Part shown: positions 24,324-41,543 of the stretch, piece after piece
Layout: the number at the start of each line of letters is the position of its first letter
How positions within the stretch are numbered: position 1 is the stretch's first letter
NCBI GenBank assembly: GCA_903843965.1
Contig: CAIMRY010000040.1
Span: forward strand, 1-64,000
Reading direction: 5' to 3'
Length of the DNA stretch: 64,000 nucleotides
Origin: an uncultured delta proteobacterium
Lineage (GTDB): Bacteria; Desulfobacterota; Desulfovibrionia; Desulfovibrionales; Desulfovibrionaceae
The notes under the pieces: generated by a model
Databases searched by the model: none
Told to the model about the DNA's origin: nothing
What the model saw: only the letters and a program-made list of their open reading frames with translations
Position numbers and translations under genes: made by a program

Positions 24324-24919
24324 GCGCCCTTCCGCAGACCCGCCTGCGCATCTTCATGACCGGCGTGGGCGGACAGGGCACCCTCACGGCCACCACGCTG
24401 CTGGCCCGCACAGCCCTGGCCGCAGGCCTGCCCGTGACCTCCGGGGAGATCCACGGCATGGCCCAGCGCGGCGGCGTGGTCGAGTCGACCCTGCTCATCG
24501 GCTGCAAGAGCCCCAAGATCGGCCCGGGCGAGGCCGACATCCTGCTCGGCTTCGAGCCGCTGGAGACCCTGCGCGCGCTCAGCTACCTGAAACCCGGCGG
24601 GCTGGTGCTCTCCAGCACCGAGTACCTGCCGCCGCTGTCCGTGGCCTGCGGACGCGAGGCCAGCCCGGACATCGAGGCCATCAAGGCCAAGGTGGCCGCC
24701 TGCGCGGGCCAGGCCCGCTTTTTGCCCTGCCGCAGCCTGGGCCTGCAGGCCGGGGCGGTGCAGAGCGGCAACATCGCCCTGCTCGGCGCGCTGTGCGCCA
24801 TGGGCGCCCTGCCCTTCGGGCTGGACGTTCTGGCCGACACCGTGCGCGCCACCATGAAGCCCACGGTGGCCGAGGTGAACATCAAGGCCATGGAACTGGG
24901 AGCCGCGTACCCGGCCTAG
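24320..24919 (+). CDS. iorB: Indolepyruvate ferredoxin oxidoreductase, beta subunit
   Basis: A 199-aa gamma/beta-type subunit of 2-oxoacid:ferredoxin oxidoreductases. The hallmark is the N-terminal GVGGQGTLTATTLLARTALAAGL, then EIHGMAQRGGVV and the C-terminal PTVAEVNIKAMELG. Start ATG 24320 overlaps the iorA stop, so the two are translationally coupled. A larger open frame on this strand from 23576 is out of frame with iorA and is only a shadow upstream of 24320. Confidence 0.95.
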   Translation: MSALPQTRLRIFMTGVGGQGTLTATTLLARTALAAGLPVTSGEIHGMAQRGGVVESTLLIGCKSPKIGPGEADILLGFEPLETLRALSYLKPGGLVLSSTEYLPPLSVACGREASPDIEAIKAKVAACAGQARFLPCRSLGLQAGAVQSGNIALLGALCAMGALPFGLDVLADTVRATMKPTVAEVNIKAMELGAAYPA

Positions 24920-24947
24920 GGCCGCGCGCGTCGTTTTAGGATACCCG

Positions 24948-26519
<1,572 letters not shown>

Positions 26520-26819: not shown

Positions 26820-27563
26820 ATGTCCGCTTTTGACGCGCCGCCGCCCGACGCCGCGGCCAACGCGTCCGATGCGCCCGAAGCGCCGCCAGCGCCGCGCGCG
26901 CCGTACATCGTCCGGCGCATCTTCGCCGTGGGCGACATCCACGGCTGCCATGCCAAGCTGGCGCGGCTGCTGGACGCCCTGCCCCTGAACCAGGACGGGG
27001 ACCAACTGGTGTTCCTCGGGGACTACATCAACCGTGGCCCGGACTCGCGCCTGGTGCTGGACCTGCTGCTCACGCTTGCGGAGCAGCGGCCAGAGACGGT
27101 GTTCCTCCAGGGCAACCACGAAGAGACCCTGCTGCACTACGCCCGCACCGGCGACATGGACCTCTTGCCCCTGCTGCGCTCCATGGGCGTGGAAGCCACC
27201 CTCAAGAGCTATGGCGACGCCCAGCCGGACGCACTGCGCGACCTGAGCTTCCTGCCGCCCGAACATGTCGATTTCTTGTTGCGGCTGGAGCCGCACTACC
27301 GCGCCGGGGGCTACCTCTTCGTGCACGCGGGCGTGAATCCTGCGGGCGAACTGGCCCCGGACTGCCCCGGCGGGGAGTCGCTCACCGTGCGCGGCATGTT
27401 TCTGGCCTGCGCGCCCGGCGGGCCGGAGGTGGTGGTCTTCGGCCACACGGCCTTTGACACGCCCCTTTGGGCGCCGGGCAAGATCGGGATCGACACCGGG
27501 GCCTGGCAGGGCAATTTGCTGACCGCAGTGGAGCTGCCCGCCCTGGTGTTCCACCACGCGTGA
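26820..27563 (+). CDS. PPP-family metallophosphoesterase
   Basis: A 247-aa serine/threonine-phosphatase-like or Ap4A-hydrolase-like enzyme with a two-metal site. Motifs in order: AVGDIHGCHAKL (GDxHG), FLGDYINRGPDSRLVLDLL, FLQGNHEETLL (GNHE), LFVHAGVNP and VFGHTAFDTPL. The second motif reads GDYINRG where GDYxDRG is usual, an Asp to Asn change next to the metal-binding Asp. ATG 26820 is chosen because the upstream reading frame is low-complexity; the first 25 residues (proline/alanine-rich) are a linker-like tail. It faces the large minus-strand operon. Confidence 0.85.
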   Translation: MSAFDAPPPDAAANASDAPEAPPAPRAPYIVRRIFAVGDIHGCHAKLARLLDALPLNQDGDQLVFLGDYINRGPDSRLVLDLLLTLAEQRPETVFLQGNHEETLLHYARTGDMDLLPLLRSMGVEATLKSYGDAQPDALRDLSFLPPEHVDFLLRLEPHYRAGGYLFVHAGVNPAGELAPDCPGGESLTVRGMFLACAPGGPEVVVFGHTAFDTPLWAPGKIGIDTGAWQGNLLTAVELPALVFHHA

Positions 27564-27741: not shown

Positions 27742-30360
27742 TCAGGCCTGTTCGGGCGCAGCGGCCAAGGCCGCCGTCAGCCCCTCCAGGGCATAGTCGC
27801 CCTCCAGGAAGGCGCGGGCCACGCGGCCCGGCATCTCGTCGTCGACCATGGCCGCGTCCAGCAGCCGGGTGAAGCCGAGCAGCCTGCCGAGCATGACCAG
27901 CCGCTCCTGGGCCTCGGCCTGGGTGGGCTCGGCCAGGGTGCCCGTGACCATGTCGCCCCGGCGGTCGGTGAAGAACCCAAAGGCCTTCAATATCTCGGAC
28001 ACGGCCCGGACGCGCCGCTCGCGCTGCTCCCTGGCCGTGCCGCCGCCCTTGAAGCGAAAGCGCACGTAGTTCTCGCGCCGCTCCGCCCCGCAGACCGCGT
28101 CGATCATGGCGAAATGGAACTCCACCCGGGCGTTGACGTTCAGGTAGTCCCGGGCCACCAGGGCGTAGTTGAAGTTGCCCACGGGCCGGGCGCTGCGTCC
28201 GTCGAGCAACGCGCGCGACAACACCCCGCCGACGCTGCCCACGGGCGGGGCCTCGCGCCAGCGCAGGCCGGGGGTGGCCATGCCCTGGCACAGGGAGAGC
28301 AGCGGCAGGGAGCGCACGTCGGCCAGCTGGATGTCGCGGCGGGAATGCTGTGCGGCCAGCCCGCCGCCGAAGTCGATGACCAGAAACGGGATGGGGCTTT
28401 CGTTCAGCCGCCGCAGCAGCACCCCGGCCTCCTCCAGCACCGCGTCCCCGGCGTCGAACATGGCCAGAACGGCCATCTCGTGGACATAGCGCACCAGGTC
28501 GTGGGCGCTCTTGCACTCCACGGGCGAAAAGGTCGGGCCGTAGGCGTCGGTCAGGTTCAGGGGCACCAGCAGGCCGTGCAGCGCGGCCAGGTCCGGCGGC
28601 AGCGGGGCCGACCCCCTGGACGCGGCGCGGCGGCGGCACTCCCTGGTCCCGCCCTCGTCGGCGCAGGACCAGGCCTCTTCCGGGGCCTCCAGCACCTCGC
28701 CCCGGTCGGCGTCCAGGATGATCCACTGACCGCCGCGCAGGCGCTCCATGGCCCCGGACATGCCGGTGAGCATGGGCAGGCCCAGCTCCCGCGCCACGCA
28801 GGACAGGTGGTCCGCCGGGTTGCCCAGCTCCACCACCACTCCGTCATACTCCGGCAGCACCTGGGCCGCCTCGACCATGCTGTGGCGCAGAACGAGAATG
28901 CGCAGGCCCTGCGGGGCGTGGGCCGGGTCGGCCTCGTGGGCCGAGCGGGCCGGGTGGGCCTGGCCCACGGCGCGGCCGGGCGAGGCTGTGACCCCGGACT
29001 CCAGCAGCACGGCCCCGCGCCCCAGCCGCACCGACGACCTGGAGCGTCCGGCCAGGCGCACTGGCCGGGCCTGGAGGATGCGGAAATGATCATCCGGGGT
29101 CATGGCCCACTCAATGTCCTGGGGCTGCCCGGCCAGGCTCTCGATCATGCGCGCGTAGCGCAGCAGGCGGCGCAGCTCGTCAACGGACAGGGCCGGGAGC
29201 CCGCGCTCGGCCACGGGCACCGCCACGCGGCGCACCCCGCCGTCCGGCTGGACCTCGTCGCGGAAGGCCTTATCCGCGATCTCGGAGGGCATTGCGGCCT
29301 CGTCCCCCTCGCCGGGGTCGCGCAGGGGGTGGAACACGTCCACCGGGGCGTCGCCGCCCACGGCCCCGGTGCCCAGGCCGTGCACGGCGGTGAGCAGCAT
29401 GCGCCCGTTCTCCGGGGCTGCCGGGTCCACGGTGAAGAGCACCCCGGCGCAGCGTGCCGGAACCATGACCTGGCAGAGCACGGCCATGTCGAAATCCACC
29501 AGCGGCAGCCCGGCCTGGCGGCGGTAGCTGGTGGGGCTGGGGCCGAAGTTGCCCGCCACCACCTCGCGGAAGGCCGCCAGCAGGCCCTCGGCCGTGGTCA
29601 CGTTGAGTTCAGTGTGGAACTGCCCGGCAAAGGAATGCTCAGCCTTGTCCTCCACCAGGGCGCTGCTGCGCACAGACACGGCCAGGCTCTTGCCCAGGCG
29701 CTCCCAGGCGGCCACCAGCTCTGCGGCCAGATCGTCCGGCACGGGCGCGGCCAGGATGTCGCGGCGGATCTCCTGGGTGGCGCTGTCCACACTTTTGCCC
29801 AGCTCCACGGCCCCCAGGCTGCGCCGTATTTTGGCCTCCAGCCCGGAGGCGGACAAAAACCGGCGGCAGGCCCTGGTGGTGGCCACAAAGCCGTCGGGCA
29901 CGGGCAGGCCGGAGCGCCGTAGCTGGGCCAGGGTGGCGGCCTTGCCGCCGCAGAAGCGGCGCTGGTCCGCGTCCACCTCGGCCAGGGCCAGGCACAGGGG
30001 CGCGTGGTCCTCGCGCGGGGCGATGGCCGCCAGGGACCGGCGCACGGCCTGGGCCAGACGCTCCTGGCGGTCGTACAGGCCCATGTGGCGGCCCCCGGTG
30101 ATGCGGTTCAGGCCGTCCACGAGGTCAAAGGCCGTGTCCATGAGCCTGGCCGCAGCCTCGGAGACCTCGCCGCCGTCCCGGTTGGCCAGGGCGCGCTCCA
30201 CGTCGGCCAGGCGCTCCAGGGCCTGTTCATTGTCGGCCAGCAGGATGCGGAAGGCGTGGTAGCGGGCCTTGAGATGGCCCAGGGCCTCGGCTGCGCGGGC
30301 AGTGCGCAGGTCGCGCCAGGAGGCCAGCGCCCTGTTGAACCAGCTGGTCAAGAAATTCAT
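27742..30360 (-). CDS. PEP-synthase-like ATP-grasp/phosphohistidine protein C
   Basis: An 872-aa member of the dikinase superfamily, last gene of the operon. Residues about 1-125 are helical. The PPDK/PpsA-type ATP-grasp region covers about 130-435: GGKAATLAQLRRSGLPVPDGF, SVRSSALVEDKAEHSFAGQ near 227, and QDIEWAMTPDDHFRILQARP near 412. A swivel domain follows with ADHLSCVARELGLP, His518 at the phospho-acceptor position. The PEP/pyruvate TIM barrel of PpsA is missing. Residues about 590-872 are a domain I do not recognise (LNLTDAYGPTFSP, C, HD, HE, then VEFHFAMIDAV and YVRFRFKGG) that is shared with the two upstream paralogues. Both ATP site and His look intact, so autophosphorylation is plausible. 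The acceptor is unknown. It overlaps the preceding gene by 4 nt. Confidence 0.85.
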   Translation of the reverse strand: MNFLTSWFNRALASWRDLRTARAAEALGHLKARYHAFRILLADNEQALERLADVERALANRDGGEVSEAAARLMDTAFDLVDGLNRITGGRHMGLYDRQERLAQAVRRSLAAIAPREDHAPLCLALAEVDADQRRFCGGKAATLAQLRRSGLPVPDGFVATTRACRRFLSASGLEAKIRRSLGAVELGKSVDSATQEIRRDILAAPVPDDLAAELVAAWERLGKSLAVSVRSSALVEDKAEHSFAGQFHTELNVTTAEGLLAAFREVVAGNFGPSPTSYRRQAGLPLVDFDMAVLCQVMVPARCAGVLFTVDPAAPENGRMLLTAVHGLGTGAVGGDAPVDVFHPLRDPGEGDEAAMPSEIADKAFRDEVQPDGGVRRVAVPVAERGLPALSVDELRRLLRYARMIESLAGQPQDIEWAMTPDDHFRILQARPVRLAGRSRSSVRLGRGAVLLESGVTASPGRAVGQAHPARSAHEADPAHAPQGLRILVLRHSMVEAAQVLPEYDGVVVELGNPADHLSCVARELGLPMLTGMSGAMERLRGGQWIILDADRGEVLEAPEEAWSCADEGGTRECRRRAASRGSAPLPPDLAALHGLLVPLNLTDAYGPTFSPVECKSAHDLVRYVHEMAVLAMFDAGDAVLEEAGVLLRRLNESPIPFLVIDFGGGLAAQHSRRDIQLADVRSLPLLSLCQGMATPGLRWREAPPVGSVGGVLSRALLDGRSARPVGNFNYALVARDYLNVNARVEFHFAMIDAVCGAERRENYVRFRFKGGGTAREQRERRVRAVSEILKAFGFFTDRRGDMVTGTLAEPTQAEAQERLVMLGRLLGFTRLLDAAMVDDEMPGRVARAFLEGDYALEGLTAALAAAPEQA

Positions 30361-32885
30361 GTGCCGCCCCCCTTCCCGCCTGGGCCGGGCATTGGCCCGC
30401 TGGCCGCGTCCTGTTCGGGCAGGCCCAGGAAGGTCCCGGCCTGGCTGGCCACGGCCTGATCCGTGCCCAGGTCCGTGTCGAGCTGGCGGGTGAAGGCGGT
30501 GAGCTCGCCCAGGCGCGCCAGCACGGCCTCCATGTCCGGCCTGTCGGCCACCTTGAACTTGCCCACCACCAGGTCCTGGTTCACCACCACCTGAAAGCCC
30601 AGGCCCTCCAGGATGATGCGGATGAGCTTGGCCCGGCGCTCACGGCGGTGTTCGTCGGCCAGTCCGCCCACAAAGCGGAAGTAGATGGAGTTCTGGTTCG
30701 GATTGTCGCCCAGGTGCGCGTCGACCACGCTGAAGTGGTAGCCCAGCCGCAGGCTCAGGTTCATGTAGCCCCTGGCCACGATGGCCAGGTTCTGCCCGGC
30801 TGCGCCCGTGGGGTCGTTCAACAGCTCGAAGGTCTTGCGCAGGCCGCCCAGGACATCGCCCGCGCTCAAGGAGGCCGCGTCCGTGCGCCAGGCGTCCCTG
30901 CTGCACAGGCCGCGCAGGAAGGCCCGCAGCGGCAGGCACTCCAGCTGCTCCACCGCGATCTCGCGCCCGGCCTGTTCGGCCACGCCCTCGCCCAAGCCTT
31001 CGCCGATGTCCAGCACGCGGATGTCCATGGGCACGTTGAGCCGGAGCCGCCGGGCGTCAGCCCCGCTCAGGCCGGGCTGGCGGGCGTGGATCTCGGCCAG
31101 CTCCTCCACGGCCTTTTCATGGGCGAAGTGGATGAGGTCGTGGAAGGTGCGGCAGCCCGCCGGGGTGAAGTCCGCCGCGTCCGGGTCGATCAGGTTGAGC
31201 GGCTGGATGAGCCGCAGGATGCGCCGCAGCATGGCGTATTCCGGGTCGCCGGGGTCCAGCTCCGGGCCGAAGGCGCGCAGGCGCAGCAGCGGCTCCAGCA
31301 CGCCCTGGTAGACCGCGCCGCCCTGGGCGTCGGCCGTGGCGTCCACGGTGACATCGGACCCGGCGGGCAAAAGCGTGAGCGCGTCGTGCAGGCCGAACAG
31401 GGCCGGGACGCGGTATTCGCGGGCGATGGTGGCCAGGTGGCCCACGGTGGTGCCCACCTCCGTGACCAGGGCGCTGGCCCGGCGCAGCACCGGGCTCAAG
31501 GCCGGCGCGGCCACGTGGGCCACGGCCACCGCGCCCAGGGGAAAGTCCTCGGGGTTGTCGCCCGGGCGCACGTGCACCACGCGCCCGGCCCCCACCCCGG
31601 CCTGGGCCACATTGCCGCCGTGGGCCAGCGGCACCGCCCCGGCCAGAAGCTCGTCCAATTCCTGCGGGTCCTGCTCGCTCCGGGCCAGGGGCCGCGTGGA
31701 CGTGAGCAGGAGCCGCCCGCGCGGGGTCAAGAGCCAGCCCAGCTCCTGGGGCGCGTTGAGCACGCGCTCCACGGCCATGCAGGCCTCGGCCAGGTCGCCC
31801 AGGGTCTTGCTGGACAAAAGCGCGGTGCCGCGCAGCAGTCCGTTTCTCAAAAGCGAAAGCGGCGGGCCGCCGTCCGGGTGCTCGAAGCGGCTGGGCTTGG
31901 CCAGAATCTCGGAGCGCAGGGCCCGGAAGGGATAGCTGCGGCGCACCAGGTGGCGCTCCACGGCTGCGGCCTGGCCCAGGTCCGCGCCGGTGGCCGCGCA
32001 GTCCTTTGCGCAGTCCTTTGCGTGGGCCCTTGCGCCAGGCGTTCCAGGTTGGGACACGCTGACGGACAGGGCGTCGCGCCGGGACGCGGTGTGGTCCAGG
32101 GTGCGCACCAGCCCGCAGAGCACCGGCTCCGGTGCCTCGCGCACGCTGACGGACAGGGCCGCCGCCTCCGGGAAGCCAGCCCCGGCGCGGGCCAGGTGCC
32201 GCTCCAGGGCGATGCGGATGACCAGTGGCAGGTCGTCCAGGTGCCGGGCCAGGGCCAAGGGCTCGCGCACGCCGTCATCCGCTCCGATCTGGTGCACGGC
32301 CACGGCCAGCGGGCAGGCCCGGCCGCAGCGGCGGCGCAGGGCCGCAGCCTCGCGCTGCAGGCTCTCCTTCAGCTCCGGGGGGCAGGTCGGCTGCGCCAAA
32401 AGCTGGCTCACGCCCATGGCCGTGAGGGCGAAGCCGTCCTGCACGGGCAGGCCGAAGCGGTGCTTGAGCTCGGCCAGGCAGGCCACGCCCGCGCCCACGG
32501 CCTGCTCGGTCTCCCAGCCGATGTCGGTGAAGGACAGGACCGGCGGCAGGTTGGCCGGGTCCGGCCCGTCGGCGAGGATGTCGTCGAGCAGGGTGCGCAG
32601 GGCCTGGTAGCGGTCGAAAAGCTCCACGTAGCGGTCGCCGGTGAGGTTGTTCAGGCGGTAGACCGTGCGCTGGACGAGCAGGCCCAGGTCGCGCACGGAC
32701 TTCTCCAGATAGGCGCGGTCGAAGATGTACTCGCCGCCCAGGGCGCGCTCCAGGGAGGCCATGAGCTCCAGGGCGTCGGTGTTGTGCTCCAGAATCAGGC
32801 GGAAGTTGTGGAACAGGGAGCGCATGGCCACGGATCGGGACTGCTTCGGGCGGTCTTGGCCGGGTCTGGAGAAGAGCTTGCCCAT
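30357..32885 (-). CDS. PEP-synthase-like protein B, degenerate ATP-grasp
   Basis: An 842-aa paralogue of its two operon neighbours. The N-terminal helical region (about 20-120, ILEHNTDALELMASLERALGGEYIFDRAYLEKSVRDL) closely matches protein A. The ATP-grasp domain is eroded: the SFAGQ segment is absent and the ILQARP motif reads LLLTSTRP. The swivel domain keeps TTVGHLATIAREYRVPALF with His483. The shared C-terminal domain is complete (LNLIDPDAADFTPAGCRTFHDLIHFAHEKAVEEL near 560, NSIYFRFVGG). It may be a pseudokinase-like subunit that accepts phosphate from A or C. A 12-bp repeat (AKDC x2) occurs near 31999-32022. ATG 32885 is chosen; longer frames upstream cross a 250-nt non-conserved gap. 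Confidence 0.83.
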   Translation of the reverse strand: MGKLFSRPGQDRPKQSRSVAMRSLFHNFRLILEHNTDALELMASLERALGGEYIFDRAYLEKSVRDLGLLVQRTVYRLNNLTGDRYVELFDRYQALRTLLDDILADGPDPANLPPVLSFTDIGWETEQAVGAGVACLAELKHRFGLPVQDGFALTAMGVSQLLAQPTCPPELKESLQREAAALRRRCGRACPLAVAVHQIGADDGVREPLALARHLDDLPLVIRIALERHLARAGAGFPEAAALSVSVREAPEPVLCGLVRTLDHTASRRDALSVSVSQPGTPGARAHAKDCAKDCAATGADLGQAAAVERHLVRRSYPFRALRSEILAKPSRFEHPDGGPPLSLLRNGLLRGTALLSSKTLGDLAEACMAVERVLNAPQELGWLLTPRGRLLLTSTRPLARSEQDPQELDELLAGAVPLAHGGNVAQAGVGAGRVVHVRPGDNPEDFPLGAVAVAHVAAPALSPVLRRASALVTEVGTTVGHLATIAREYRVPALFGLHDALTLLPAGSDVTVDATADAQGGAVYQGVLEPLLRLRAFGPELDPGDPEYAMLRRILRLIQPLNLIDPDAADFTPAGCRTFHDLIHFAHEKAVEELAEIHARQPGLSGADARRLRLNVPMDIRVLDIGEGLGEGVAEQAGREIAVEQLECLPLRAFLRGLCSRDAWRTDAASLSAGDVLGGLRKTFELLNDPTGAAGQNLAIVARGYMNLSLRLGYHFSVVDAHLGDNPNQNSIYFRFVGGLADEHRRERRAKLIRIILEGLGFQVVVNQDLVVGKFKVADRPDMEAVLARLGELTAFTRQLDTDLGTDQAVASQAGTFLGLPEQDAASGPMPGPGGKGGGT

Positions 32886-33135
32886 GCGATCCCTTGCGGC
32901 GGCCCGTGCGGCGGGTCCTTCGCCATTTCGTTTTGAAACATGCTGCCGGAGCGTTCCGGCGACAGTTCCGGTTCTGCCTGCGCTGTTGCTGTGTGCGGCG
33001 GGCGGCGCGGCGTCTTTTACGCACGGCTTTATCCGGTGTCGCGCCGGTGGCAGCCTCGCCGATGGCAGTCGTCGGCGTCGCGTCCGCCTGTCTTCACGCC
33101 CGGAAGAGAGGCGCTTGCCCGACCGCAGCCCTGCC
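32886..33135 (-). promoter_or_regulatory. Gap in the operon with a near-palindromic element
   Basis: A 250-nt interval between the lone receiver gene and protein B; the other gene junctions in this operon overlap or lie within 8 nt. Positions 32946-32959 read CCGGAGCGTTCCGG. Its reverse complement contains the 13-mer CGGAACGCTCCGG, which is also found at 38493-38505 upstream of the operon. No promoter is evident, so it may be an internal regulatory or processing region. Confidence 0.4.
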
Positions 33136-33558
33136 TCAGCCCGCCCGCAGGCCCTTGTCCAGGCGCTGCTTGTCCTCGATGCGGCGCACCGTGTCCAGGA
33201 TGTCCGAGAGCTTGAAGGGCTTGGCCACAAAGTCGAACGCGCCCTTGCGGAAGGACTCCTTGGCCGTGTCCAGCGTGGCGAAGCCGGTGATGACCACCAC
33301 CCCGGTCTCCGGCGAGAGCTCCTTGACCCGGGTCAGGAAGTGCATGCCGTCCACGCCCTCCATCTTGAGGTCGGTGATGACGATGTCGAAGCGTGTTCCT
33401 TCGACGCGGGCGAGCGCGCTGGCGCTGTCGGTGAAGGTCTCCACCTCGTAGCCGGCCTTCTGGAAGGCGGGCTTGAGCCGCTTGCAGACGATGGGCTCGT
33501 CGTCCAGGATGAGAATTCTGGTCTTGGCCGGGCTGGCCGGCCTCGTGTCCTCAGTCAT
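33136..33558 (-). CDS. Single-domain response regulator within the PEP-synthase-like operon
   Basis: A 140-aa receiver (RILILDDEPIVCKRLKPAFQKAGYEVETFTD...FDIVITDLKMEGVDGMHFL...VVVITGFATLDTAKESFRKGAFDFVAKPF). The residues D19/D20, phospho-acceptor D63, the T of ITG and the K of AKPF are present. It overlaps protein A by 8 nt (ATG 33558 inside the end of the upstream gene). It has no output domain. Its sequence resembles the receiver of the divergent sigma54 regulator (EPIVCKRL versus ETVVCRRL), so both may use the same kinase. It probably links kinase signalling to the dikinase-like proteins. Confidence 0.9.
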   Translation of the reverse strand: MTEDTRPASPAKTRILILDDEPIVCKRLKPAFQKAGYEVETFTDSASALARVEGTRFDIVITDLKMEGVDGMHFLTRVKELSPETGVVVITGFATLDTAKESFRKGAFDFVAKPFKLSDILDTVRRIEDKQRLDKGLRAG

Positions 33559-36172
33559 TGCGCACCTCCAGAAGGGGCGTGATGCGTTGCAGGAATTCCT
33601 CGGCGTGGCGGTTGATGTCCTCATCGCAGTGCAGGCACACGTCCAGCTGCCGAGTATAGCCGATGAGCCCGCCCAGGACCAGCATCTTCTCCCGCATGCG
33701 CAGCGGCGGGAGCTTCTTGATGCGGCCCACCACAAGGTCGCCGTGGACCTCCACGCGGAAGTCCAGGCGCTCCAGGATCAGGGCGATGCAGCGGGCCCGG
33801 CGGGAGCGGCGCATGAAGTCCGTGACCCCGCCGAGGAAGCGGAAATAGATGTAGTTGTCGTTCACCCGCTCGCCGATGTAGGCGTCGATGATGTTGAAGT
33901 GGTAGCCCAGGCGCAGGTGCAGGTTCATGTACTCGTGGGAGACAACGGCCAGGTTGCGGCCGATGTTTCCGGGCGCGGCCGAGGCCGAGCTGAAGGTCCT
34001 GGTGAAGCTCGACATGAAGCTGCCCAGGTCCACGCTCACAGGGTCGGTGGACCACATGCCGGACTGGGTCAGGCCGTCGAGCATGGCGGCCAGCGGCACA
34101 GAGCCCAGGGAATCCTGGGTCACGCTCATGCTTCCCCGCGCAGGCACGGGCCCCTGCTCCAGGTCGATGACCATGAGCCCGAGGGGCTGCTCCGAGTCCA
34201 GGCGCCTGGGCGTGCCCCCGCTGCGGTGCCAGTGGCGCTCGCTCACGTTGATGAGCTCCTCCACGGCCTTTTCGTGGATCCAGCGGGTGATGTCGTGGAA
34301 GGTGCGGCAGGCCGAGGCCTTGAACTGCTCGCTGTGCGGGTCCACCAGGTTCAAGGGCGCGATGCGCTTCAAGAGCCGCCGCAGCAGCCGGTACTCGGCG
34401 GATTCCTCGAAGGACTCCTCGCTGGTCAGCTCAAAGCGGCACAGCTCCGGCACGGCCCCGCGGAACACCGTGTTCTGGGTGGTGTCGAGCGTGATCTCGT
34501 CGCCGGTGTTGAGCAGGCTGGTGGCCACGCCGGTGTTGACCACGGCGGGCACGCGGTATTCCCGGGCCAGGGTCGACATGTGCCCCGTGGCCGAGCCCAC
34601 GTCGGTGATGATGCCCTGGGCCGCGCGCATGACGCGCGAATAGCGCGGGGAGGTGTGCTGCGTGACCAGGATGGCCCCGTTGGGAAAGCGCGCCAGGTCG
34701 TCATCGGTGCGCACCACAAAGACCTTGCCCACGGCCACGCCATGCTGCACCACGGTGCCCTTGCCGGAAAAGATGACCTCGGCGTTGCGCGTGGCGGCGA
34801 CCACGCTCATGGACGGGTCCGCGCAGGCCTGGTCCAGGCGCGGGCGCATGTTCAGCGGGCGGGCCTGCAGGATGAACAGGGTGTCCTCGGCGTCAAAGGC
34901 CCACTCCACGTCCTGGGGCCGCTTGTAGTAGCGCTCGATGGTCATGGCCGTCTGGGCCAGGCGCTGGATGCGCGCGGGCGAGAGGCAGGGCGCGTCCTGC
35001 CGGTCGGGCTCCACGTCCTGAAGCCCGGTGCCGCCGCCGGGCAGGCTCACCAGGCGCACCGGCTTGTGCGCCACCTCGAAGGAGCGCACGGCCAGGGCCT
35101 CGCTGCGGTCGATGAAATAGGTGTCGGTCTCGGCCGTGCCGTCCACCACGGGCGCGCCCAGGCCCCAGGTGGCGGAGATGACCATGGCCTCCTCCTCGCG
35201 CGCCAGGGGCGCGTAGGTGTAGAGCGCGCCGCTGACCTCGGCCTTGACCATGGCCTGGCAGCCCACGGCCATGGCCGTCTCGTTCTCCTTGTAGCCGCGG
35301 TGCAGGCGGTAGCGCCAGACCTCCGGCGAGTAGGCCCCGGCCAGCACGCGCTTGTATGCGGCCAGCACCTTGCCCGACGGCACGCCGAGCACGCTCTCGT
35401 ACTGCCCGGCGAAGCTGAACTCCGAGTCCTCGCCCCAGGCGCTGCTGCGCACGGCGTAGAGGATGCCCCTGCCGTGGCGGGCGGCCAGCACGTCGAGCAT
35501 GGCCGCAATCTGCTGGGCCACGGGCCGGGGCACCTCGCCCTCCAGGATGCGGGTCCTGATCTCCTGCGACAGCTCGTCCAGGCCCTGCTCCGCCGCCGCC
35601 TCGCCCGCCGCCGCCCCACCCGCAGCCGCCAGGCGGGCAAGGCCCTCCTCGACCCGGCGCGTCACGTCGTTGTGCGCCATGAAGTCGAAGAAGGCCTTGC
35701 TGGTGATGACGAAGCCGTCCGGCGTAGCAAGCCCCAGGAAGTTGCGCACGTCGCCCAGGTGGGCCAGCTTGTTGCCGGCCTCCTCGCTCACGTCGCGGTT
35801 CAGCTCCTCCAGGGGCATGGTCAGGCTGGCATTGGGAAACGAATGCCGCCCGGCCAGCTCCTCCTCAATCTGATGCTGGATGCTCTCAAAGGCCAGGAAC
35901 AGGTCCACGTTCTTGCGCTGGGTCAGCACCGAGAGGTCCGAGATCAGCTTGAACACCAGGTCGCCCAGGCGCTCGCAGGCCGCAACGATGTACTGGCCGT
36001 CGAAGACGTATTCCCCGCCAAGCTTGTCGCCCATGTCGGCCATGAGCTCCAGGATGGCGTTGTTGCGCTCCAGGATGATCTCGAACTTCTTGAACTGCAC
36101 GGCAAAGGGAACCGGCGGCTTTTTCGGCCGCCAGAAGGCGAACAGATCCCTGATGCCGCTTTGGCTGAACAT
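33551..36172 (-). CDS. PEP-synthase-like ATP-grasp/phosphohistidine protein A
   Basis: An 873-aa protein, first of three paralogues. Residues about 25-135 are helical (FEIILERNNAILELMADMGDKLGGEYVFDGQYIV). ATP-grasp region about 140-435: GDVRNFLGLATPDGFVITSKAF, AVRSSAWGEDSEFSFAGQYES near 250, and QDVEWAFDAEDTLFILQARP near 417. The swivel domain has TDVGSATGHMSTLAREYRVPAVV, His531. Residues about 590-873 replace the PEP/pyruvate barrel with the shared unknown domain (APLNLVDPHSEQF, CRTFHD, HEKAVEEL, GYHFNIIDAYIGE, NYIYFRFLGG). Catalytic residues for ATP-to-His transfer appear intact. Known relatives (PpsA, PPDK, rifampicin phosphotransferase) phosphorylate a small molecule. Its acceptor cannot be read from the sequence. 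Confidence 0.87.
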   Translation of the reverse strand: MFSQSGIRDLFAFWRPKKPPVPFAVQFKKFEIILERNNAILELMADMGDKLGGEYVFDGQYIVAACERLGDLVFKLISDLSVLTQRKNVDLFLAFESIQHQIEEELAGRHSFPNASLTMPLEELNRDVSEEAGNKLAHLGDVRNFLGLATPDGFVITSKAFFDFMAHNDVTRRVEEGLARLAAAGGAAAGEAAAEQGLDELSQEIRTRILEGEVPRPVAQQIAAMLDVLAARHGRGILYAVRSSAWGEDSEFSFAGQYESVLGVPSGKVLAAYKRVLAGAYSPEVWRYRLHRGYKENETAMAVGCQAMVKAEVSGALYTYAPLAREEEAMVISATWGLGAPVVDGTAETDTYFIDRSEALAVRSFEVAHKPVRLVSLPGGGTGLQDVEPDRQDAPCLSPARIQRLAQTAMTIERYYKRPQDVEWAFDAEDTLFILQARPLNMRPRLDQACADPSMSVVAATRNAEVIFSGKGTVVQHGVAVGKVFVVRTDDDLARFPNGAILVTQHTSPRYSRVMRAAQGIITDVGSATGHMSTLAREYRVPAVVNTGVATSLLNTGDEITLDTTQNTVFRGAVPELCRFELTSEESFEESAEYRLLRRLLKRIAPLNLVDPHSEQFKASACRTFHDITRWIHEKAVEELINVSERHWHRSGGTPRRLDSEQPLGLMVIDLEQGPVPARGSMSVTQDSLGSVPLAAMLDGLTQSGMWSTDPVSVDLGSFMSSFTRTFSSASAAPGNIGRNLAVVSHEYMNLHLRLGYHFNIIDAYIGERVNDNYIYFRFLGGVTDFMRRSRRARCIALILERLDFRVEVHGDLVVGRIKKLPPLRMREKMLVLGGLIGYTRQLDVCLHCDEDINRHAEEFLQRITPLLEVRND

Positions 36173-36180
36173 GCCGGCTC

Positions 36181-36954
36181 CTAGTGTGCTCCCTTGCTCT
36201 GGAACACCAGCCCGATGGCCAGGCCGCTCAACAATGCCACGATAGTGGCCAGGATGCCATAGATCAGCGAATGGTTGAAGGCCACATCGGCCAGGGCCGC
36301 CGGAACGCCCACCAGCTCCACCTGCACGTTGCTGCTGCCGCTGGCGGCGAGCTTGCCGTCCTTCAGGGCCAGCACCTCAACCGTGTACGCGCCTGGGGCC
36401 AGCTTCGAGGGCACGGGCATGACCGCGCGGAAGTCCTGGCTGGCGCCCTCGGCCGGGCTCAGGGTCACGGCGGCCTTGACCTCGCGGTACAGGCCTTCCT
36501 CGCGCCGCAGCTTGATCAGCTCCTGGCGGTTGACCGGGGTGTCCTTTTCCGCCGGGGCGATGGCCACGTCCTGGGCCACGCGCTCCAGGCGGTACGGGGC
36601 CGCCGCCGCGCCGATCTCGTCCAGCGGGCGGGAGGCCGCGACCAGATACACCGAGGGCACGTTCTCAATGGTCAGGGAGCCCAGGTTCATCCACAACAGA
36701 CCCAGGGCCTTGCCCTTTTCCTTCATGTGCAGTTCCGAGCGCGCGCCCACGAAGCGCACCACGACATCGCTGCCAGCCGGGGCCTTGCCCGTGACAGTCA
36801 GCTGCGTGCCGTCATAGGTTGCGCCGATGCGCACCGAGGCCGGGCTCACGGCGAAGTCCAGACCCGCAGGCGCAGGCTCCGCCGCGAACAAGGCAGCAGG
36901 ACAGGACAGGAGAATGGCGAACAGGGTGATGAGGCAGAGTTTGATGCCGCGCAT
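36181..36954 (-). CDS. TIGR02186-like membrane-anchored periplasmic protein
   Basis: A 257-aa protein with a Sec signal peptide (LCLITLFAILLSCPAALFA), a beta-rich periplasmic part (VSPASVRIGATYDGTQLTVTGKAPAGSDVVVRFVG, the immunoglobulin-like opening typical of the TIGR02186 group), and one C-terminal membrane helix (about residues 228-250). From memory, this family tends to lie next to TauE/SafE permeases, as it does here (2-nt gap). It probably works with the TauE-like protein as an extracytoplasmic partner or sensor. It is followed 8 nt later by PEP-synthase-like protein A. Confidence 0.75.
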   Translation of the reverse strand: MRGIKLCLITLFAILLSCPAALFAAEPAPAGLDFAVSPASVRIGATYDGTQLTVTGKAPAGSDVVVRFVGARSELHMKEKGKALGLLWMNLGSLTIENVPSVYLVAASRPLDEIGAAAAPYRLERVAQDVAIAPAEKDTPVNRQELIKLRREEGLYREVKAAVTLSPAEGASQDFRAVMPVPSKLAPGAYTVEVLALKDGKLAASGSSNVQVELVGVPAALADVAFNHSLIYGILATIVALLSGLAIGLVFQSKGAH

Positions 36955-36956
36955 GA

Positions 36957-37916
36957 CTAGTGTCCTCCCATGTAGGCCAGCAGAACGCTCGGCTGTGCCA
37001 GCAGGCCGTAAAGCATCTTGCCCATGACCACCAGCACCAGGGTCGCCAGCAGGATCTTCAGCTGGTCGCCGTGCAGGCGCTTGCCGATCTTGGCCCCCAC
37101 CTGCGCGCCGAAGGACGAGCCCAGGAGCAGGATCAGCGCCAGGACGAAGTCCACGGTGTGGTTCTCCACGGACTGCATGATGGTCACGTTGATGCAGGTG
37201 AACAAGATCTGGAACAGGCTGGTGCCCACCACCACATGCATGGGCATGCGCAGCAGGTAGACCATGACCGGGACCATGATGAAGCCGCCGCCCACGCCCA
37301 TGATGGCCGCGAGCACGCCGACCAGCACGCCCAGCACCAGGGGCATGAGCACGGACAGGCGGATGCCGGAGCGCGGGAAGTCCATCTGCCAGGGCATGGC
37401 CTTGATGCAGCGCGCGTAGGCCGATTCCTTTTTGGGCTTGGCCGGTTCGGCGCTTTCCGCCTGGGGCTTGGCCGGCTTCTTGTTCTTGCGCAGGGCCTGC
37501 AGGCTCTCCAGGAACATGTAGCCGCCGACAAAGCCGAGCATGAGCACGTAGGTGATGTTGATCAAGAAGTCCGCGTTGCCCATGGCCCGCAATATCTTGA
37601 TGACCTGGACGCCGAGCGTGCCGCCGAGAACGCCGCCCACCAGCAGCAGCAGGCCCATCTTGAAGTCCACATTGCCCATTTTGAAATGCGCCAATGTGCC
37701 GGAGGTGGACGCCCCCACGATCTGGTTGGAGTCCGACGCCGCAGCCACGGTGGGCGGAATGCCCATCATGATCAAGAGCGGCGTCATCAAAAAGCCCCCG
37801 CCGACACCGAAGATGCCGGAAAGCAGGCCGACCGCAACGCCCAGGCCCAGGACTGCGACCACGTTGACGCTGTTGCCAGCGATGGGAAGGTAGAGATGCA
37901 GCGGTATGGCCATCAA
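36957..37916 (-). CDS. TauE/SafE-family permease
   Basis: A 319-aa inner-membrane protein of the TauE/SafE (sulfite exporter) family with about 8 helices in two repeated halves. The halves carry the family signatures LSGIFGVGGGFLMTPLLIMMGIPP and LAAIMGVGGGFIMVPVMVYLLRMP. A charged cytoplasmic loop of about 50 residues (KNKKPAKPQAESAEPAKPKKES) separates them. Members move sulfite, sulfoacetate or other organosulfur anions. In a sulfate reducer a sulfur oxyanion is a plausible but unproven substrate. It directly abuts usp and the TIGR02186-like gene. Confidence 0.88.
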   Translation of the reverse strand: MMAIPLHLYLPIAGNSVNVVAVLGLGVAVGLLSGIFGVGGGFLMTPLLIMMGIPPTVAAASDSNQIVGASTSGTLAHFKMGNVDFKMGLLLLVGGVLGGTLGVQVIKILRAMGNADFLINITYVLMLGFVGGYMFLESLQALRKNKKPAKPQAESAEPAKPKKESAYARCIKAMPWQMDFPRSGIRLSVLMPLVLGVLVGVLAAIMGVGGGFIMVPVMVYLLRMPMHVVVGTSLFQILFTCINVTIMQSVENHTVDFVLALILLLGSSFGAQVGAKIGKRLHGDQLKILLATLVLVVMGKMLYGLLAQPSVLLAYMGGH

Positions 37917-38360
37917 TTACCCCTTGTGCGTCTGAAGGTTCACGTTCTTTTTCGGGGAAACCACTTCCACTCGGCAGGAGACGCGGTGGCGTATCCTCTG
38001 CAACCAGGACGACTCCGCATCCTGGGACCGGCCGTCCCCACGACCGTCCCCGTCCATGGCCTCGACCACCAGCAAGGTGGTCCTGTCATGCTCCACAAAA
38101 CGGATCACCTCTTCCTCGAAGCCCCCCTCGGCCACGAAGTGCTGGATGCGCACGCCTTCTGATTTGGCGGCCTCGATGCGCAGCTCCAGGCGGTTCTTCA
38201 CTGCGTCTTCCTGACGAGGGGCAGCTGCGCCCGCCTGCTGGGGCGGCACAACCCGCAGCACGGAAACCCGCGCGTCGATGCGCCCAGCCAGGGCAATGGA
38301 CCGGGACAAGGCCTCCCAGCCCCCGTGCGTGCCGTCCATGCAGACAAGAATCCGTTCCAT
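37917..38360 (-). CDS. Universal stress protein family
   Basis: A 147-aa UspA-fold protein (MERILVCMDGTHGGWEALSRSIALAGRIDARVSVLRVV...VKNRLELRIEAAKSEGVRIQHFVAEGGFEEEVIRFVEHDRTTLLVVEAM). The usual ATP-binding G-x2-G-x9-G-S/T pattern near the C terminus is replaced by a glycine/aspartate-rich insert (GDGRGDGRSQDAESS), so nucleotide binding is doubtful. It is the first gene of the operon, about 20 nt after the predicted sigma54 transcription start, with GGGGAG as ribosome-binding site. Confidence 0.85.
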   Translation of the reverse strand: MERILVCMDGTHGGWEALSRSIALAGRIDARVSVLRVVPPQQAGAAAPRQEDAVKNRLELRIEAAKSEGVRIQHFVAEGGFEEEVIRFVEHDRTTLLVVEAMDGDGRGDGRSQDAESSWLQRIRHRVSCRVEVVSPKKNVNLQTHKG

Positions 38361-38391: not shown

Positions 38392-38407
38392 AGCAACGGC
38401 GGTGCCA
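38392..38407 (-). promoter_or_regulatory. Sigma54 (-24/-12) promoter of the usp-tauE-dikinase operon
   Basis: On the minus strand the sequence is TGGCAC (38407-38402), 5 nt, then TTGCT (38396-38392), matching the sigma54 consensus TGGCAC-N5-TTGCW at every defined position. The predicted start is near 38381, about 20 nt before the usp ATG. A sigma54-dependent response regulator is encoded in the divergent operon. Confidence 0.88.
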
Positions 38408-38505: not shown

Positions 38506-38657
38506 GAGCCCTTCTCCAGGCCTTGTGTCGATTTGAAACAGGCGTATACACGGTGCAGGCCGGAGGCGGCTGTTTCCGGCCCGCGCCCGTGGAACGATGC
38601 TTGCTCAAAGCCCGGCAGGCGCGGCGATGGGCGCGCCGCAACCCGAGCAGGAGAGCC

Positions 38658-40151
38658 ATGACCATGACCGGACGCGCGCCTTCGCAGAGCCCCGCCTTTC
38701 CCTCCCGGGAAGGCACGCTGTTGAACTTCTTCCGCTCCATCAAGGGCAAGATGTTTCTGGTCTTCGCCCTGACCTTTCTTTCGGCCGGGCTGTTGACCGT
38801 GCTCAACCTCTTCACCATGGACACGGTGAAGGGTCGGCTTTTGATGGGCGAACGCTACGAGTTCCTCCTGGAGAACATCCTGGAGGTGCGCCGCTTCGAG
38901 AAAAACTTCCTGCTCTACGGCGACGGCGCAAGCATCGAGGAGGGCAACACCTACCTGGCCCGGGTGGACGAGCTGGTGGCCGAGCTGGCCCCGGACATCG
39001 CCGCCGTGGCCGGGCCGAAGGACTTCAAGTCCTTTGAGGGCGTGCTGCTGGCCTACGAGGCCTCGGTGCGCTCCTTTGCCGCAGGCAGCAGCCCCAACCG
39101 CCTGGAACGCGAGGAGGTGCGCGCGCGCGGCAAGGTCCTGGTGGACTTCGCCCAGAAGATCATCCAGACCAAGCGCGCGCGCATCCACAGCACGCTGGAG
39201 CGGGCCTCGGTGCTGCCCTTCGCCTACCTGGCCGTGTTCCTGCTGCTCATGGTCGTCATCATCAAGCTCATCTCGCGCGGGATGCTGCGCCCGCTGGACG
39301 TCATCCGCGTGACCACGGAGCGCGTGGCCAGGGGCGACTTCAGCCCCATCCCGCCGGACCCCGGCCAGATGGGCGAGATCGCCGGGCTCATGGGCGCCTT
39401 CAACCGCATGGCCCACGAGCTGGAGGCCAACCAGGAGGACCTGCTCCAGGCCCGCAAGATCGCCGCCCTGGGCACCTTCACTGCGGGCATCGCCCATGAG
39501 CTGAACAACCCGCTGAACAACATCTCCCTCACGGCCGAGGCCTTCATGGAGGTCCACGGCGACGAGTTGGACGAGGACGGCACGGAGATGCTCGCCGACA
39601 TCACCACCCAGGCCGAGCGCGCCAGCGAGATCGTGAAGAACCTGCTGGACTTCTCGCGCACCGAGCACCCGACCTTCGTCAGCCTGGCCCCGGAGGACAT
39701 CGTGCGCAGCACCGTGGCCCTGGTGCGCAACCAGGTCATGCTCTCCGGGGTGCGCCTGGAGGTCAACGTGCCGGACCACCTGCCCGCAGTCCTGGGCGAC
39801 CTGCGCACCCTGCAGCAGGTGTTCATGAACCTGCTGGTCAACGCCATGCAGGCCACCCCGCCCGAGGGCGTCATCACCCTCCTGGCCGGAACCGACCGCA
39901 GCGGTGACTTTGTCCGCTTCGAGGTGCGCGACACCGGCTCCGGCATCCCGCCCGAGGCGTTGCAGCACATCTTCGAGCCGTTTTTCACCACAAAAGAAGT
40001 GGGCCGGGGCACGGGCCTGGGCCTGGCCGTGACCTACGCCATCATCAAGCGGCACGGCGGCCGCATCGACGTGAAAAGCGAACCGGGCCAGGGCACCGTG
40101 TTCAGCGTGTTTTTGCCGCAGGCCAGGGTCGATGCATACACCGATGCGTAA
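38658..40151 (+). CDS. Membrane sensor histidine kinase
   Basis: A 497-aa two-component kinase. A first membrane helix (about 32-52, MFLVFALTFLSAGLLTVLNLF), a periplasmic helical sensor of about 130 residues (including EVRRFEKNFLLYGD, typical of methyl-accepting-like helical-bundle sensors), a second helix (about 189-210), HAMP, then HisKA with His280 in AGIAHELNNPLN, N box NLLVNAMQA, G1 DTGSGIPP, F box FEPFFTTK and G2 GRGTGLGLAV. ATG 38658 follows AGGAG; the longer upstream frame crosses the regulatory region. It is followed 45 nt later by its sigma54 response regulator. The stop lies in a 12-bp tandem repeat. Confidence 0.92.
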   Translation: MTMTGRAPSQSPAFPSREGTLLNFFRSIKGKMFLVFALTFLSAGLLTVLNLFTMDTVKGRLLMGERYEFLLENILEVRRFEKNFLLYGDGASIEEGNTYLARVDELVAELAPDIAAVAGPKDFKSFEGVLLAYEASVRSFAAGSSPNRLEREEVRARGKVLVDFAQKIIQTKRARIHSTLERASVLPFAYLAVFLLLMVVIIKLISRGMLRPLDVIRVTTERVARGDFSPIPPDPGQMGEIAGLMGAFNRMAHELEANQEDLLQARKIAALGTFTAGIAHELNNPLNNISLTAEAFMEVHGDELDEDGTEMLADITTQAERASEIVKNLLDFSRTEHPTFVSLAPEDIVRSTVALVRNQVMLSGVRLEVNVPDHLPAVLGDLRTLQQVFMNLLVNAMQATPPEGVITLLAGTDRSGDFVRFEVRDTGSGIPPEALQHIFEPFFTTKEVGRGTGLGLAVTYAIIKRHGGRIDVKSEPGQGTVFSVFLPQARVDAYTDA

Positions 40152-40196: not shown

Positions 40197-41543
40197 ATGA
40201 AGCAGGCCAGAATCGCGGTGGTGGACGACGAGACGGTGGTCTGCCGCCGCTTGAGCCAGATGCTGGCCCGCGACGGGCACGACGTGGAGGCCTTCACCAC
40301 CGCGCGCGCCTTTCTGGAGCGCATGCACGAGCGGCCCTTTGACGTGGTCTTTCTGGACCTGCGCCTGCCGGACATGGACGGCCTGGAGGTGCTGCCCAAG
40401 ATCAAGACCCTGCGCAGCGAGACCGAGGTCATCATCGTCACCGGGCACGGCGCCATCGACACGGCCATCGAGGCCATCAAGGAGGGCGCATACCACTACG
40501 TGAACAAACCGGTGAAGCTGGCCGAGATCCGCGTGCTGGCCAAGGGCGCGCTGGAGAAGGTCTCCATGCGCCTGGAGAACCTGCGCCTGCGCGAGGCGCT
40601 GAAGGGCGGCGGCGGGCTCTCGGCCTTCATCGGCACCAGCCCGGCCCTGCAACAGGTCTTCTCGCTCATCCGCAAGGTTGCGCCCGTGGACTGCAACGTG
40701 CTCATCCAGGGCGCCAGCGGCACGGGCAAGGCTCTGGCCGCGCGGGCCATCCACCAGTCCAGCCCCAGGGCTGAGCGGCCTTTGGTCAGCTTCAACTGCG
40801 GCGGCTTCACCGAGGAGCTCATCGGCAGCGAGCTCTTCGGGCACGAGCGCGGGGCCTTCACCGGGGCCACGGCCACCAAGATCGGCCTGTTCGAGTCCGC
40901 CGGAGGCGGCACGGTGTTCCTGGACGAAATCGGCGAGATGCCGCTGTCCATGCAGGTCAAGCTGCTGCACGTGATCCAGGAGAAGCGCATCCTGCGGGTG
41001 GGCGGCGTGCGCCCCATCGACCTGGACATCCGCATCATCGCCGCCACCAACAAGGACCTGAAGCACGAGGTGGCCCAGGGCGCCTTCCGCGAGGACCTCT
41101 ACTTCCGCCTCAACGTGGTCAGCATCACCCTGCCGCCCCTGTGCGACCACCGCGAGGACATCCCGCTTCTGGCCCGGCACTTCCTGGAGAAGTACGGCCT
41201 GGCCTTCCGCAAGGCCGTGGCCGCCATCCATCCCCTGGCCATGCAGATCCTGAACAACTACAGCTACCCCGGCAATGTGCGCGAGCTGGAGAACATCATC
41301 GAGCGCGCCGTGGCCCTGGCCGAAGGCGACCAGATCAGGCCTCAGGACCTGCCCCAGGACCTGCAGGAGCTGGAGTTCGACACCATGGAGGGCGAGGGCT
41401 TGCTCACCCTGGAGGAGCTGGAGAAGCGCTACATCGCCCGGGTGCTGGAAAAGACGCGCTTCAACAAGGGCCTCACGGCCCAGATTCTGGACGTGCCCCG
41501 GACCACCCTCTGGCGCAAGCTCAAGAGCTACGGGCTGGAATAG
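40197..41543 (+). CDS. Sigma54-dependent response regulator (NtrC-type)
   Basis: A 448-aa regulator: receiver (D10/D11, phospho-acceptor D54, K in NKPVKL), AAA+ domain with Walker [22 protein letters not shown] (sigma54 contact loop), FLDEIGEMP, and a C-terminal Fis-type helix-turn-helix ([25 protein letters not shown]). The residue after GTGK is Ala where Glu is usual. It pairs with the kinase just upstream. The divergent operon has a sigma54 promoter, so this protein is the obvious activator of usp-tauE and the PEP-synthase-like genes. Confidence 0.93.

Follow-up and report, generated by a model that had tools for sequence, protein, structure and literature searches.

Introduction

A described counterpart of the system reported here is the 'nitrate cluster' of Desulfovibrio (DVU0251-DVU0245 / Dde_0597-0605), which Korte et al. 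described in 2014 and which contains genes for a TauE permease, a hypothetical protein, PtxB, a kinase, a receiver (360 bp), a pyruvate-phosphate-dikinase-like protein and a dual-specificity phosphatase (PMC4001038). The presence of 100 mM nitrate made no difference to the growth of transposon mutants of DVU0251 (TauE), DVU0250, DVU0247 (receiver) and DVU0246 (dikinase-like); it inhibited the control and the DVU0245 (phosphatase) mutant, and the authors suggested a leaky thiosulfate transporter, the hints concerning thiosulfate being unpublished (PMC4001038). Nitrate is added in petroleum production against souring by sulfate reducers (PMC4001038), and knowledge of how such permeases are gated therefore has practical use. 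Elsewhere in D. vulgaris, a deep-sequencing study in 2023 gave molybdate phenotypes for DVU0539-0545 (PMC10102598), and sigma-54 regulators have been mapped or predicted for operons with TSUP or PSE transporters (PMC4641369, PMC3333781). With these systems we compare here an operon for three dikinase-like proteins, A, B and C, lying in a 64,000-nucleotide stretch of DNA from an uncultured delta proteobacterium of the Desulfovibrionaceae (contig CAIMRY010000040.1; hereafter the window, which is contig C40 of an assembly totalling 3.56 Mb over 46 contigs).

Phosphotransferases of the dikinase type do not always carry a phosphoenolpyruvate (PEP) barrel. Rifampin phosphotransferase (Rph), which lacks one, has its domains in the order ATP-grasp, substrate domain and, at the C terminus, swivel, and in it phosphoryl goes from the swivel to a molecule in the substrate domain. 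Enzyme I of the phosphotransferase system (PTS) is charged by PEP. An earlier assessment of the window (the original prediction) proposed a phosphotransfer machine with a new acceptor, and its central idea, that a family of dikinase-like proteins carries a new C-terminal domain (CTD) and is tied to an anion-type permease and a receiver, is supported by the present analysis. The proteins and their cassette are real, conserved and under-described, and place a new domain in a transport-and-signalling context. Our preferred reading, held tentatively and at just under an even chance, takes A and C to be ATP-driven phosphohistidine proteins which, together with the receiver and B, switch a TauE-type permease.

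ATP-grasp and swivel domains of A, B and C

All three paralogues were found at the places and with the sizes first predicted, on the minus strand: A at 33551..36172 (873 aa), B at 30357..32885 (842 aa; its start sits within a longer open reading frame) and C at 27742..30360 (872 aa). The same holds for the histidines of their HxxxxARE motifs, namely His531 in A, His483 in B and His518 in C. In A, the PPDK_N ATP-grasp spans residues 130-445 (34838..35785, minus strand; PF01326, 242.7 bits) and the PEP-utilizers swivel domain residues 496-565 (34478..34687, minus strand; PF00391, 71.6 bits), with the His531 codon at 34580-34582. Both families lie above the Pfam cut-off in A and C. The PF00391 swivel is above cut-off in all three proteins, and clearly so in B (48.8 bits), where PPDK_N is reduced to a 51-residue stub below cut-off.

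Key ATP-grasp residues are intact in A and C (6/6), and B fails this comparison: K135, R242, E423 and Q436 of A are replaced by G, A, G and S, respectively. The claim of an ATP-grasp in all three proteins thus stands for A and C and needs correction for B, which has lost these residues. Judging from them, B is without a working ATP-grasp of its own and retains only the swivel His and the CTD.

These assignments were assessed structurally through an AlphaFold model of A (predicted local distance difference test, pLDDT, 85; predicted template modelling score 0.79). Its ATP-grasp superimposes on PpsA (PDB code 2ols) with Z 39.1 and a root mean square deviation (RMSD) of 1.8 over 308 residues, and its swivel matches the carrier domains of Enzyme I and PPDK. 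For comparison with the PEP synthase equivalogs, A scores 306 bits against a cut-off of 598 (NF005057) and 292 against 740 (TIGR01418), B and C scoring lower.

A C-terminal domain without a clear relative

The three proteins have in common a CTD of about 280 residues (identity A-B 40%, A-C 30%), which occupies residues 580-873 of A (33554..34435, minus strand) and lies at 30360..31295 in B and 27745..28668 in C, again on the minus strand; the profile matches of 5.1e-150 for B and 1.5e-137 for C are to a profile of which each protein is itself a part. As predicted, this shared domain is unlike PpsA_C. The profile search by which an ordinary PEP-utilising barrel was to be recognised found PEP-utilizers_C (PF02896, at E<=1) in none of the eight CTD proteins of the genome (A, B, C and five others), against 162 bits in the control, the true PEP synthase of the same genome (on contig C41, beside a pyruvate-carboxylase-like gene). 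Across 70 aligned CTDs the Pfam matches were not meaningful, being scattered over 13 families with a best E of 0.008 and no more than 3 members each, and the PF02896 barrel was not among them. When the CTD profile was run against PDB sequences, a single chain was matched, at E 0.74.

Structure prediction of the CTD alone, as had been suggested, gave a model with pLDDT 77 which lacks the alternating strand-helix order typical of the barrel. Its similarity to PDB structures is weak: the best VIA match has Z 5.6 (3agb, RMSD 4.9, 132 residues aligned) and the best Foldseek match E 0.058. No fold was accepted from such low-scoring matches, which include chlorophyll catabolite reductase and T4 MotA. 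The CTD is thus a domain for which neither a known family nor a clear fold match was found.

That the proteins might nevertheless be ordinary PEP synthases or pyruvate phosphate dikinases with a divergent barrel has in its favour that Pfam and NCBIfam so name their N-terminal half. Against the absence of PF02896 from all eight members, its 162 bits in the true PEP synthase, the model without the barrel's strand-helix alternation and scores far under the equivalog cut-offs, however, the idea is scarcely credible. Library models call CTD proteins PEP synthase or dikinase, a name that their C terminus contradicts.

Conserved CTD residues in A are C622, H626, D627, H633, H758, R792, D812, R841 and D844. 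Among 97 family members, G781, G782, R792, D812 and D844 are present in every one, D627 and H633 in 96 (with one gap each), H626 and H758 in 95, C622 in 92, N773 in 91 and R841 in 90. This near-invariant polar set resembles an active or ligand site, and the resemblance also bears on the possibility of a small-molecule kinase, in which the CTD would bind a metabolite and take the swivel phosphoryl, the product serving as signal or permease cargo and the receiver only gating. Besides the active-site-like His, Asp and Arg residues, that alternative can draw on the best profile and fold matches other than PpsA, which include Rph and the PigC/RedH ligases. It sits less well with a domain order in which the swivel precedes the C-terminal domain, with B-type members that retain CTD and swivel without a working ATP-grasp, and with the operon itself, none of whose genes has a biosynthetic family match in Pfam. 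We consider it unlikely.

Distribution and phylogeny of the family

The source genome encodes eight CTD proteins, the three of the window and five others. Among 59 genomes searched as relatives, 49 gave CTD matches; in a sample of 148 genomes spanning the phylum 60 did so, with a maximum of 12 matches per genome. A few loci carry record titles from other phyla (Myxococcota, Latescibacterota, Abyssobacteria). The four-part make-up of N-terminal helices, ATP-grasp, swivel and CTD is found in 94 of 97 CTD open reading frames, the exceptions being a B-type protein without an ATP-grasp match, a copy on contig C6 without a swivel match and a clipped reading frame. At least five of the six ATP-grasp residues are kept in 88/97 family members (relatives and own-genome paralogues); the remaining nine are seven B-type proteins, the C6 copy and one open reading frame clipped at the end of its stretch. 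The swivel His is present in 96/97, with one gap.

The C6 contig (L150:5932-15042) carries a receiver, a TauE gene, genes for two proteins of 252 and 217 aa that Pfam does not match, and the CTD protein, which has half the ATP-grasp and an unmatched swivel; a phage head-tail connector gene lies nearby.

Relationships were estimated with a quick, midpoint-rooted tree of 119 rows (one in three of the A rows, one in two of the B and C rows, 70 paralogues and the three proteins of the window). B and C are each separated by a branch with support 100, B lying nearest to A and C amid other lineages, and the A group does not include two second copies, from L118 and L130, whose A label comes from their best BLAST hit. 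By this evidence the three proteins represent old lineages. A recent tandem triplication was rejected, B and C being on separate, well-supported branches, as was an identity with the 'GPMC system' of NCBI, to which matches are weak and generic and on which our literature search found no paper.

Operon layout and conservation of the cassette

The seven genes run on the minus strand from 38360 to 27742 in the order Usp, TauE, Alph_Pro_TM, A, lone receiver, B, C. The predicted linkage of the dikinase-like genes to their neighbours is borne out by shared orientation and by spacings of 0 to 8 nt or overlaps throughout, the sole larger gap being 250 nt between receiver and B (32886-33135). The first gene encodes a universal stress protein (Usp; 37917..38360, PF00582, 41.7 bits) and the second a TauE/SafE-family permease (36957..37916; PF01925, 172.5 bits against a gathering score of 32.6) with about 9 hydrophobic segments by hydropathy, whose translation probably starts at the ATG at 37913. 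The Alph_Pro_TM protein (36181..36954) has, by the same measure, a hydrophobic N terminus, a middle region and a hydrophobic C-terminal segment. Its description as TIGR02186-like holds at the level of the Pfam family (PF09608, 168.3 bits against 24.5) and not at that of the equivalog, for which it scores 89 bits against a cut-off of 255. The lone receiver (33136..33558, 140 aa; PF00072, 100.2 bits) carries D19, D20, D63, T91 and K113 and overlaps the end of A by 8 nt; C and B overlap by 4 nt. All of these genes are likewise on the minus strand.

Conservation was followed in the best 80 of 516 confirmed loci, a selection that makes the counts favour close relatives of A; labels A, B and C are there best BLAST hits, and many of the contigs end inside the cassette. 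BLAST found A in 80, the receiver in 79, Alph_Pro_TM in 75, TauE in 70, the kinase in 52, the sigma-54 regulator in 44, Usp in 37 (some truncated), B in 22 and C in 20. Where the locus has a long A and sufficient room to be testable, the receiver lies 3' of A in 69/72, Alph_Pro_TM directly before A in 69/71 and TauE upstream of A in 62/63, and all five phosphorylation residues of the receiver are invariant (73/73). In the closest loci, TauE, Alph_Pro_TM, A and the lone receiver thus follow one another in a nearly invariant core order. As for the concern that the three paralogues might not occur together in relatives, B and C are found together in 15 of 43 loci with room and neither is ever found singly (0/43), though the other 28 have A but neither B nor C.

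Outside the cassette, 71 CTD genes were surveyed (5 from the own genome, 66 from relatives). Two-component genes lie within 4 kb of 58/71, compared with 4/20 random windows (Fisher p 6e-7), and TauE within 4 kb of 18/71, compared with 0/20 (Fisher p 0.01); these BLAST counts miss divergent receivers, for example that of contig C42, which was detected by Pfam. A lone receiver directly adjoins 24 of the 64 testable CTD genes of relatives (4 more have a receiver of another type) and none of 67 control genes, five of which have an adjacent receiver of another type.

Such counts invite the alternative of a response-regulator kinase, with phosphoryl passing directly from swivel phospho-His to receiver Asp as an input to two-component signalling and not to the permease. 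The receiver beside A in 69/72 loci with its D, T and K invariant, the 24/64 adjacent lone receivers against 0/67 for control genes and the two-component genes near 58/71 paralogues all speak for it. On the other side, the CTD is never fused to a receiver (0/290 CTD open reading frames, copies included), the cassette often has its own histidine kinase (in 52 of the best 80 of 516 loci), 36/64 paralogues have no adjacent receiver, and the CTD would be left without a clear role, so that we regard direct transfer as improbable. By the adjacency counts, the cassette shows a strong link to the receiver and the family as a whole a partial one.

Probable transcriptional control

The unit reaches beyond 38360, to 41543, through two divergent plus-strand genes. 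These encode a sensor histidine kinase (38523..40151; HAMP, HisKA and HATPase by Pfam), which probably starts at 38658, and a sigma-54-dependent response regulator (40197..41543; receiver, AAA+ and Fis helix-turn-helix by Pfam). A sigma-54 promoter-like site, TGGCACCGCCGTTGCT, matching TGGCAC-N5-TTGC, lies upstream of usp at 38392..38407 on the minus strand; a second, at 38590..38605 on the plus strand and with 1 mismatch, precedes the kinase start. Among related loci, 36/63 have such a site (no more than 1 mismatch) 5' of the first gene, 23 of them perfect, in comparison with 0.5% of stretches shuffled by permuting single bases. Since sites in the window as a whole are not above chance (12 found, 15.8 expected), the promoter claim rests on position and on the count in related loci. 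The kinase and sigma-54 regulator probably also control the operon.

With the promoter-like site and the adjacent regulator in view, and with sigma-54 regulators of D. vulgaris mapped or predicted at TSUP or PSE transporter operons (PMC4641369), it may be asked whether the dikinase-like proteins act through transcription only, tuning kinase and regulator, with the sister-cluster phenotype arising from reduced TauE expression. No sigma-54 regulator, however, is among the nitrate-cluster genes as listed in the accessible text (PMC4001038), and TauE precedes the receiver and dikinase-like genes in sister clusters, so insertions in those genes should not be polar on it. This explanation therefore seems very improbable to us. 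Polar effects also explain the DVU0246 mutant poorly, given the upstream TauE and the lack of resistance in the D. vulgaris DVU0245 mutant; nitrate sensitivity seems to require the dikinase-like protein itself.

Proposed mechanism

Under our preferred reading of A and C as ATP-driven phosphohistidine proteins that switch the permease, their PpsA-type ATP-grasp would load phosphoryl onto the swivel His. The swivel would then serve the CTD, which takes the place of the PEP/pyruvate barrel and would be, or hold, the acceptor. B would be a partner unable to load itself and fed in trans, and the dikinase-like proteins, with the lone receiver, would change the activity of the TauE permease and its membrane-anchored partner. 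A bolder reading, a PTS-like but ATP-charged relay from swivel His (fed by the ATP-grasp of A and C, and in trans for B) through the CTD to control of TauE, with the receiver joining it to two-component signalling, is possible though on the doubtful side. If true, sulfate reducers and their relatives would have in this relay a general module for controlling transport.

Several observations weigh against permease switching. For 13/71 CTD genes of the family, the search within 4 kb found no two-component gene; the 36/64 paralogues without an adjacent receiver and the 0/290 receiver fusions count here too, and the adjacency test gives a lone receiver for 0/5 other members of the own genome, in spite of which Pfam finds one beside the C42 member. 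The C6 member is without a swivel domain by Pfam, and the 28/43 cassettes with room that have A dispense with both B and C. In the sister cluster, a mutant in the kinase (a pseudogene in DvH), grown alone, showed little or no effect; phosphatase results are opposite between species, Dde_0605 mutants being resistant in D. alaskensis pools; and results for DVU0250 are contradictory between pooled and single growth (PMC4001038). DVU0246 is itself placed in the CTD family from synteny and gene sizes. Of the wider links suggested by the original prediction, sulfur-anion transport is not supported, the published sister cluster concerning nitrate (PMC4001038), and energy sensing found no support in this analysis.

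Genes beyond the operon

Convergent to C lies a plus-strand gene (26820-27563) with GDxHG and GDxxxRG motifs, which suggest a protein-phosphatase-like product. Further away, the translations of 22419-26519 (plus strand) read like an indolepyruvate:ferredoxin oxidoreductase pair and, after it, a sigma-54 activator.

Comparison with known systems

In A, as in PpsA (2ols), the ATP-grasp is followed by the swivel His, and the residues for phosphoryl loading are kept in A and C. Unlike PpsA, the window proteins add an N-terminal helical region and have the CTD in place of the barrel, and B is without the ATP-grasp residues. The ATP-grasp of A also resembles that of Rph (5hv1, 5hv3, 5fbs), with 5hv3 at Z 37.9 and RMSD 2.4 over 317 residues, and the alignment ranges agree with the Rph domain order given above. 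A, B and C, in contrast, run ATP-grasp, swivel, CTD: the C-terminal swivel of Rph is not found in A, where it occupies residues 496-565 of 873 and the CTD follows, and the score is 216 bits against the Rph model cut-off of 999. The A swivel matches the N-terminal half of PTS Enzyme I (1zym) with Z 16.6 and RMSD 1.9 over 116 residues. The window proteins differ from Enzyme I in having an ATP-grasp, and no PTS family was found by Pfam among the nine proteins scanned (the window operon and the divergent genes).

At the level of gene clusters, DVU0539-DVU0545 shares with the window a divergent kinase and sigma-54 regulator opposite Usp and an anion-exporter-type permease (PMC10102598, PMC4641369). 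It differs in that the permease is of the PSE family and, according to the accessible text of these papers, the dikinase-like gene is absent. On contig C29 (L147:8063-15038), a CTD dikinase-like gene adjoins the gene for an 830-aa sigma-54 activator whose N-terminal ~460 residues have no Pfam match, with TauE divergent; this resembles what is described for the sigma-54 regulator DVU0151, which controls a transport operon and has a long N terminus of unknown kind (PMC4641369).

Gene orders like that of the nitrate cluster recur in the family itself. TauE, PtxB, kinase, receiver and CTD-family protein follow one another in 11/15 family stretches, nine of which also have the phosphatase (L239, L240, L242, L243, L245, L246, L248, L249, L250) and two of which have the full set without it (L238, L244). 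No TauE was found in L236, L237 stops short of the dikinase-like gene, and in L241 and L247 our simple gene finder called almost no genes. An opposite-strand gene lies between TauE and PtxB in L238, L242, L245 and L250. The C42 paralogue of the source genome is accompanied by PtxB, kinase, receiver and phosphatase, with no TauE found in its stretch. In L236 (3976-12758), the PtxB-kinase-receiver set is flanked on both sides by CTD dikinase-like genes, the upstream product being 26% identical to the C42 member.

Within the open-licence literature searched, no description of the CTD, the dikinase-like family or the cassette was found; the nitrate-resistance biology of the sister cluster is published, without mention of the domain or family in the accessible text (PMC4001038). 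That cluster shares with the window the TauE permease, a histidine kinase, a lone receiver and a PPDK/PEP-utiliser protein. It is not the same cassette: PtxB and the dual-specificity phosphatase, present there, were not found by Pfam among the nine window proteins, and the genes listed for it in the accessible text include no Usp, Alph_Pro_TM, second or third dikinase-like gene or sigma-54 regulator (PMC4001038). TauE proteins of nitrate-type clusters are 26-30% identical to the window TauE, and in the tree the dikinase-like proteins of these clusters do not group with A, B and C. The genetics of the sister cluster may carry over to the window cassette. The nitrate-resistance cluster and, by analogy, the molybdate cluster and sigma-54 transporter operons would then be tied to one testable idea, that of anion permeases switched by soluble phospho-His proteins and lone receivers; and since the sister cluster is already known to decide nitrate resistance, the role of the dikinase-like proteins can be put to the test.

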